From Nitrospirota bacterium (GTDB lineage: Bacteria; Nitrospirota; Thermodesulfovibrionia; Thermodesulfovibrionales; Dissulfurispiraceae), in contig JBFMHE010000003.1 of assembly GCA_040752355.1 (NCBI GenBank), forward strand, positions 1 through 64,000: a DNA stretch of 64,000 nucleotides, in the 5' to 3' direction. Positions 12,807 to 13,883 of the stretch are shown piece after piece. How positions within the stretch are numbered: the first letter of the stretch is position 1; the number at the start of each line of letters is the position of its first letter. The notes under the pieces were generated by a model, which was given only the letters and a program-made list of their open reading frames with translations, searched no databases and was not told the DNA's origin. A program made the position numbers and the translations under genes.

Positions 12807-13883
12807 ATGAAAAAAAAGGTCATCGTCGGCATGAGCGGCGGCGTCGATTCGTCGGTGGCCGCCCATATGCTGCAGGAGCAGGGGTACGAGGTCGAGGGGG
12901 TGAGCTTCATTCTCTACGAGATGCGGCTGAGGGGGACGCGGCCTTCCGCGGCGCCCTCCTGATGTACCCTCGAGGCTCTGGAAGACGCCCGAAAGACCGC
13001 CGAGTCCCTCGGCATCCCGCACACCATGGTAAACCTGAGGGATGAGTTCATCAGCACGGTTGTGGAGCCGTTCACTGCCGCCTACGCGAAAGGTATCACC
13101 CCGAACCCCTGCATTCTCTGCAACAAGATGATCAAGTTTCCCCACCTGGTACGGGTCGCCGGGGAGAGAGGCGCCGAGGCTATCGCAACAGGACACTACG
13201 CCCGCGTGGAACGGCAGAGCGGAAGCGCGGAAGCCCTGCTGAAAAAGGGAATAGACTCGAAGAAAGATCAGTCATACGTGCTCTATGTGCTCGACAGAGA
13301 GGCGCTCGAGAGGCTGGTCCTTCCCCTGGGGACGAGGAGAAAGGAAGAGATCAGGCAGCGGGCGAGGGAGCTGGGGCTTTCTGCCGCCGAGCGGCCCGAG
13401 AGCCAGGAGATATGCTTCGTGGAGGACCGGTACTACTTCCGGCTTGTCGAGGAGCTGACCGGCGGTTCGCAGGGCCCCCTCATCGACAGCGAGACCGGAA
13501 CGGTCCTCGGTCATCACGGCGGCATCCATCGGTATACGATAGGTCAGCGCAAGCGGCTGGGCATCGCGACGGGCGCGCCGCGGTACGTTACCGGAATCGA
13601 CCCTGCGTCGAATGCCGTATATGTCGGGCCCCGGGAGGGGGCGATGACGCGGGAGTTCCTCGTGAGGGAGATCAATTGGCTGCTTCCGATAGCGGAGGAG
13701 AGCTTTCGCGCAGGCGTGAAAGTCAGATCTACCATGAGCGATGAGCCCGCGACCATCGCTGTTCTCGATCATGCTGCTGCAAAAGTCATCTATGACGAGC
13801 CCCAGTGGGCTCCTGCGCCCGGCCAGAGCGCGGTATTTTACGACGGCGATACAGTGGTAGGGGGTGGCGTCATCTCCCGGTGA
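12807..13883 (+). CDS. mnmA: tRNA 2-thiouridylase MnmA, probable selenoprotein (in-frame TGA at codon 52)
   Basis: The frame from ATG 12807 to TGA 13883 has one internal TGA at 12960-12962. Read through, it gives 358 residues, the normal MnmA length. Codons 1-51 hold the ATP-pyrophosphatase P-loop ([12 protein letters not shown]). The TGA is followed by [20 protein letters not shown], which matches the CCSLEDVxDAR segment of many MnmA proteins, so the TGA stands exactly at the first Cys of CC. Downstream are [12 protein letters not shown] (catalytic Cys), [18 protein letters not shown] and SQEICFV (second catalytic Cys). A hairpin at 12970-12992 fits a bacterial SECIS. MnmA makes s2U34 in Lys, Glu and Gln tRNAs. 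A sequencing error (TGC or TGT to TGA) or a pseudogene are the alternatives, but the rest is intact. Confidence 0.85.
12970..12992 (+). promoter_or_regulatory. Candidate bacterial SECIS hairpin in mnmA
   Basis: Seven nt after the TGA a hairpin can form: TCG/CGA, GGC/GCC and TCT/AGA stems (9 bp, with single bulges A12973 and C12986) closed by a GGA loop at 12980-12982. The loop begins 17 nt after the TGA and starts with G, within the published bacterial SECIS rules (loop with an early G, about 16-37 nt from UGA). It was found by eye, so a chance hairpin in GC-rich coding sequence is possible. Confidence 0.55.

Follow-up and report, generated by a model that had tools for sequence, protein, structure and literature searches.

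Does the TGA that stands in frame at codon 52 of a Nitrospirota mnmA gene specify selenocysteine, and if so, what would selenium be doing in a tRNA thiolase? The gene (tRNA 2-thiouridine(34) synthase; positions 12807-13883, + strand) lies in the 64-kb stretch of DNA analysed here, referred to below as the window, and its identification as a selenocysteine form of mnmA is based on its translation, on family models and on selection acting before as well as after the TGA. The enzyme is of interest in its own right since the way in which MnmA transfers sulfur is disputed, a persulfide on Cys199 having been set against a hydrosulfide activated by a [4Fe-4S] cluster (available text of PMC11784392 and PMC8584467).

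An MnmA Reading Frame That Continues Through TGA

The initial annotation had placed an in-frame TGA at codon 52 (12960-12962, +), with MnmA similarity on both sides and a U-C reading at the site, and all three points hold. The codon lies at that position and is the single TGA within the frame; two NCBIfam MnmA models cross it in one uninterrupted stretch, PRK00143.1 with 396.7 bits (cut-off 284, residues 4-356) and TIGR00420 with 340.9 bits (cut-off 236.95, residues 3-356); and translation with TGA as U gives 358 residues, with U52 followed by C53 (TGT, 12963-12965, +), in a motif of ten residues whose letters are not shown here. The vicinal Cys53 is kept in all three selenocysteine (Sec) forms described below and in relatives with a Cys-Cys pair. 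The frame ends at a TGA of its own (13881-13883), and an AGGAG resembling a ribosome-binding site is found 8 nt 5' of the ATG (12794-12798, +).

For comparison, 88 MnmA ORFs were taken from loci picked by pattern, which is not a random sample, and 49 of these were aligned with the window protein. In the resulting alignment of 50, S10, G11, G12, D14 and S15 of the PP-loop SGGVDSS (residues 10-16; 12834-12854, +) are invariant, as are C105 and C203. Cys102-x-x-Cys105, within NPCILC (13110-13121, +), and Cys203, within SQEIC (13413-13415, +), align with the catalytic or Fe-S ligand positions, a role taken from the available parts of PMC8584467 and PMC11784392. A table-11 ORF list retains from this frame just a 285-aa ORF beginning at an internal ATG (13026-13883, +); it lacks the PP-loop, and for that reason is presumably no working MnmA by itself. 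Gene callers would be expected to report the gene here as a truncated MnmA.

Selection has acted on both parts of the frame. Among the three Sec-form genes, dN is 0.10-0.27 on each side of the TGA in all three pairs (six pairwise comparisons), dS is 1.38 to 3.58 in three of the six and not computable in the other three, and wherever dS is computable dN is well under it on both sides, the mark of purifying selection.

The neighborhood is also shared. In all three genomes with a Sec form, mnmE, a PpiC-like gene (- strand), mnmA, genes for a MOSC protein and MogA/MoaB, a DsbD/CcdA-like gene and leuS occur together, and in 16 of 37 relatives' loci both MOSC and MogA genes lie within the flanks (1.5 kb or less); this common setting argues that the Sec gene is the native mnmA locus and not a stray copy. 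A search of the window's genome (G000) found no other MnmA, its lone further match being a ThiI-like PP-loop protein, so that the gene described here is the native mnmA of this Nitrospirota bacterium, probably a member of the order Thermodesulfovibrionales, and, within the reach of that search, its sole one. The candidate for a second, Cys-form MnmA (G000:C28:31243-31905) was rejected as ThiI-like: it belongs to a 343-residue PP-loop protein (P0002, G000:C28:31237-32268, +) with an NPCxxC motif, ThiI-like by domain, which matches TIGR00342 with 46 bits, under the cut-off, similar weak matches being present in many relatives.

Two further observations concern the surrounding genes. The best NCBIfam match of the DsbD-like gene (window 15006-16805, +), an uninterrupted ORF, is the selenoprotein model seleno_TsoB, at 491 bits and below the cut-off of 805. 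Farther upstream, window 438-7458 (+) encodes a protein of 1998 residues with apparently abundant YD-type repeats and, after it, one of 335 residues whose end resembles a chaperone domain of the phage tail-fibre type.

The Same Codon in Related Genomes

The comparison set consisted of 40 related genomes, in 36 of which MnmA was found at E <= 0.001 (in G010 through a distant PP-loop match alone). The window's family was covered by 31 genomes, 28 with a match if that of G010 is included, and among the matches listed TGA was present only in the window's genome and in G002 and G015, both of genus g3 in the same family. In each of the latter two, mnmA contains a single TGA, which falls on the same codon. 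Over the 36 loci whose motif stands a constant 132 nt from TPNP, the codon is TGA in three and TGC or TGT in 33, and the alignment of relatives that the initial annotation had recommended accordingly gives TGA in two (G002 and G015) and TGC or TGT in 33. Loci in which the motif is absent at that spacing (L030, L046, L047, L048, L051 and L052; residue by residue, L030 has a gap at the Sec52 site) and additional loci from the same genomes (L024, L050, L053, L055 and L056) stand outside these counts.

The pattern TGATGY...TPNP was matched by four of 395 Nitrospirota genomes, in a scan that genomes whose MnmA is without the CC loop could not match: in frame at 165 nt in the window's genome, G002 and G015, and out of frame in G014, also of the window's family. 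A wider pattern scan of genome contigs returned at least 116 stretches, of which, among the matches listed, one was in frame (G002) and 115 were out of frame. In a tree of 44 MnmA, the three Sec forms group together, nested among Cys forms of the order; the g3 pair is firm (100/98) and the clade including the window protein weak (89/41). This topology would fit, though it does not prove, a single Cys-to-Sec change.

One alternative is that the TGA arose by error in sequencing or assembly, or that the gene is decaying and has acquired a nonsense mutation, with the 285-aa ORF or nothing functional as its product. The three genomes are indeed only drafts (44, about 70 and about 270 contigs), and the table-11 list offers just the ORF from 13026; against this stand the identical TGA in the genomes of three species, purifying selection before and after it, a conserved hairpin downstream (see below), and the lack of a second MnmA in the search. 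Error or pseudogene is rejected on the strength of the three species and the purifying selection, and we consider it very improbable.

A Hairpin Downstream of the UGA

A SECIS-like core hairpin, GGCUCU-GGA-AGA(C)GCC, is predicted at 12974-12989 (+), with a lower stem that may extend to 12970-12992. The stem starts 11 nt past the TGA (14 nt counted from its first base) and the GGA loop lies at 12980-12982, 17 nt past the TGA, just where the initial annotation had put it. In the predicted folds the core is identical in all three Sec genes, with differing outer stem bases.

The initial annotation had further held that this hairpin matches the rules for a bacterial SECIS. Two sets of our own folding rules were applied, a loose one (a loop with an early G, roughly this far downstream) and one of exact geometry (6 bp, a bulged base on the 3' side, a triloop, and a start at +14). 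The loose rule is satisfied by 3/3 Sec forms and 2/33 Cys forms, and also by 166 of the 2085 TGA triplets in the window (8%); by itself it is weak evidence. The exact geometry is found in 3/3 Sec forms and 0/33 Cys forms and is pairable at 10 of the 2085 triplets, the mnmA site included. With Rfam at gathering scores, the sole match in the 64-kb window was a tRNA, with no SECIS match. In each of the Sec genomes, one selD gene (L185-L187) has a hairpin of exactly the mnmA geometry and position in another sequence, its triloop being UUC, without the early G, unlike the GGA of mnmA.

The codons over the hairpin are themselves conserved: the three Sec genomes share six in a row (E-A-L-E-D-A) without any change. 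No longer stretch of this kind occurs in the gene, and of its 209 codons for identical residues just 52 are the same codon in all three. By permutation, a run of this kind anywhere in the gene has p = 0.032; at that particular place the probability is about 0.249^6 = 2.4e-4.

Selenocysteine Machinery and the Probable Decoding of UGA52

All four of the genes selA, selB, selC and selD, whose presence the initial annotation had proposed as a check, occur in the window's genome, an assembly of 44 contigs totalling 3.57 Mb with a listed completeness of 100%. Profile matches are 614.5 bits for SelA and 356.3 bits for SelB; SelD is matched with 348.2 bits and, in a second copy, with 315.6 bits, and the two selD genes (G000:C1:32143-33066, -, and G000:C7:140007-140921, -) have one in-frame TGA each. 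tRNA-Sec scores 68.1 bits and is called by ARAGORN as tRNA-SeC with anticodon tca. In G015, SelA, SelB, SelD and tRNA-Sec are all present. In G002, SelA and SelD are present, the SelB match is partial (positions 1-264) yet over the cut-off, and the tRNA-Sec is unconvincing (47.0 bits against a gathering score of 47). SelB is over the cut-off in 36 of the 40 related genomes. All three Sec genomes also have FdhA matches over the cut-off with one in-frame TGA. A further match to an FdhA model in the window's genome, under the cut-off and likewise with one in-frame TGA (G000:C12:50327-51127, -), is possibly another selenoprotein.

Within the window, no second coding TGA was accepted: 71 junctions passed a length filter and seven, mnmA included, were coding-like by base composition, the other six being, as we read them, probable gene ends or joins. 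A tie to selenouridine synthesis was likewise rejected. SelU is over the cut-off in none of the 40 genomes, and the weak matches under it, in 11 of the 40, include none in the three Sec genomes; selenium here is therefore not part of the SelU selenouridine pathway.

Taken with the same-codon TGA in three species of two genera, as opposed to TGC or TGT in 33 relatives, the hairpin and the machinery back the reading of selenocysteine at the MnmA CC motif advanced in the initial annotation: UGA52 is very probably decoded as selenocysteine by SelB and tRNA-Sec, with the hairpin just downstream. That it is instead read as Cys, Trp or another residue through a code change or readthrough, for which no support was found, is the least likely explanation and is rejected, TGA being an ordinary stop that ends 11 of the 32 non-overlapping window ORFs of >=150 aa picked by base composition, the complete Sec machinery with tRNA-Sec(TCA) being present, and the aligned residue being Cys, as expected for Sec.

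The Cysteine That Is Replaced

Which cysteine of MnmA would the selenocysteine stand for? It is none of the catalytic or Fe-S set, as C102-x-x-C105 and C203 are intact. The equivalent residues of the E. coli enzyme are D99, C102 and C199 (available text of PMC11784392), and C102 in place of Asp99 occurs in 39 of the 50 aligned proteins, that of the window among them. C102-x-x-C105 together with C203 makes the MnmA here one of the CxxC-C type, and by its sequence it is presumably [4Fe-4S]-dependent; the CxxC-C MnmA of Thermus thermophilus binds such a cluster (PMC8584467, in the part available).

By its constant spacing to TPNP, Sec52 corresponds to another conserved cysteine, Cys49 of E. coli. 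Sec52 sits 46 residues before TPNP, and a Cys is found at exactly that spacing in 36/36 DxxC-C MnmA examined, followed by P in 28, T in 3, S in 3, H in 1 and E in 1. The E. coli number follows from an alignment to 2der and the start of the E. coli sequence. An HMMER alignment to 2der puts Cys49 opposite Cys53, in columns of low confidence, while the TPNP spacing and a MAFFT alignment of other DxxC-C MnmA put that Cys opposite residue 52. In CxxC-C MnmA, a Cys at this spacing is present in 13 of 52 and missing from 39, so that the reaction as such can do without this site. The column of residue 52 in the alignment of 50 contains 26 Cys (Sec52 counted as Cys), one Lys and 23 gaps.

The cysteine 46 residues before TPNP in the DxxC-C enzymes (loci L057-L172, 36/36; Cys49 in E. 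coli) is a feature in its own right, with no function described in the parts of the literature available; the only match to a literature search on MnmA Cys49, in the text accessible, concerns the desulfidase RudS.

An AlphaFold2 (AF2) model of the protein (mean pLDDT 93.7, pTM 0.92; mean 61 over residues 41-50) has residue 52 in a loop (36-54) that leads directly into helix 55-68. As modelled, Sec52-Cys53 would lie between strand 2 and helix 2, and the topology of the PP-loop fold suggests that this loop is on its active-site side. Among solved structures, 2hma (Z 42.5) and 2det (Z 42.0) tie for the best match.

Possible Roles of Sec52

Altered sulfur transfer, as the initial annotation suggested, stays a tentative reading. 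The most likely role for Sec52, put forward tentatively and with somewhat less than even confidence, is that of a perselenide sulfur relay beside the [4Fe-4S] center. Sec52 would take sulfane sulfur from a persulfide donor as Sec-Se-SH; Cys53 would resolve this and set HS- free beside the open iron of the cluster at Cys102, Cys105 and Cys203; HS- at the open iron would then attack adenylated U34; and a thiol system would reduce the resulting Se-S bond again. Both the uptake and the release of sulfur would be faster with selenium. We count in favor of this relay the Cys at position 52 in 36/36 DxxC-C MnmA, the intact C102, C105 and C203, and the place of residue 52 just before helix 55-68 in the AF2 model.

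A second possibility, to which we give about one chance in four in the sense of a minority view, is that Sec52-Cys53 carries no sulfur and is a redox switch or protective site, an Se-S bond forming under oxidation to shield the Fe-S cluster or turn MnmA off and being reversed by thiol reductants. The vicinal U-C pair is kept in 3/3 Sec forms, a DsbD-like thiol-disulfide gene is in the same gene group, and the CxxC-C MnmA of T. thermophilus is inactive under aerobic conditions (PMC8584467, available portion). Cys forms, however, also have DsbD-like genes next to them (at 11 of the 37 loci from relatives), and in DxxC-C MnmA the first Cys is kept while the second is not, so that the conserved role of the first is not a vicinal disulfide.

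Sec52 may also be a Cys-to-Sec exchange with little or no chemical gain, tolerated in a lineage that uses selenocysteine; other relatives with the motif keep Cys, and Sec machinery is common in the group (36 of 40 by SelB). Retention of Sec across two genera, at high or saturated dS and with the hairpin conserved, makes this rather unlikely. More doubtful still is Sec52 as an extra or exchangeable [4Fe-4S] ligand: topology suggests that the loop probably lies toward the strand ends of the PP-loop fold, but C102, C105 and C203, the three ligand positions, are all retained, and the mechanism proposed for such enzymes needs an open iron (available part of PMC10067955).

A further possibility, held more loosely than the relay itself, is that selenium supply gates wobble-uridine thiolation, with Sec52 acting as a perselenide relay to the Fe-S site. 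Since no Cys-form MnmA was found in the genome, full-length MnmA could be made only with Sec-tRNA available. Were the gating real, s2U34 on the Lys, Glu and Gln tRNAs would also be made only under that condition, and this would be a selenium-dependent step of tRNA modification distinct from selenouridine.

Relation to Known Enzymes and Implications

The closest known enzyme by type, the CxxC-C MnmA of T. thermophilus (PMC8584467, as far as available), shares the fold, the PP-loop, C102-x-x-C105 with C203 and the full-length family match; the window protein differs in having Sec52, at a loop Cys site outside the CxxC-C set, and a UGA with its hairpin. E. coli MnmA (DxxC-C; 2der/2det/2deu) is alike in overall structure (2det: Z 42.0, rmsd 1.9 over 349 residues) and in a single Cys49 at the same spacing to TPNP, but has Cys and not Sec, Asp99 where the window protein has Cys102, and no vicinal Cys. 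Bacterial selenoproteins of sulfur transfer are known, for example rhodanese-like forms 1-5 and MoeB, which resemble the present case in having Sec in a sulfur-handling protein; their domains are others, and the inventory table in the available part of PMC13188914 includes no PP-loop tRNA thiolase. SelU/MnmH, the tRNA 2-selenouridine synthase, also joins selenium with modification of the wobble U34, but it puts selenium into the tRNA, whereas here selenium would be in the thiolase itself.

MnmA is absent from Table 1 of that 2026 inventory, as available, which covers 119 prokaryotic selenoprotein families and subfamilies (PMC13188914). The terms MnmA, TrmU and thiouridyl are likewise absent from the main text, as accessible, of PMC12013277 (its section on new families included), PMC9312934, PMC2398784, PMC1088965 and PMC5029168. 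Literature searches, with subscription papers, preprints and database annotation outside their scope, returned no selenium form of MnmA/TrmU among the matches listed, those on Thermodesulfovibrio selenoproteins included. What appears to be new here, as far as the literature covered shows, is a selenocysteine form of a known enzyme family, MnmA.

MnmA is widespread among bacteria, and selenium at the site where E. coli has Cys49 points to a chemical role of that residue which has gone unrecognised. With this finding the selenoproteins would gain a tRNA-thiolation enzyme, and the modification of Lys, Glu and Gln tRNAs would be selenium-dependent in these bacteria: accurate protein synthesis in this bacterium appears to need selenium for one of its core steps.
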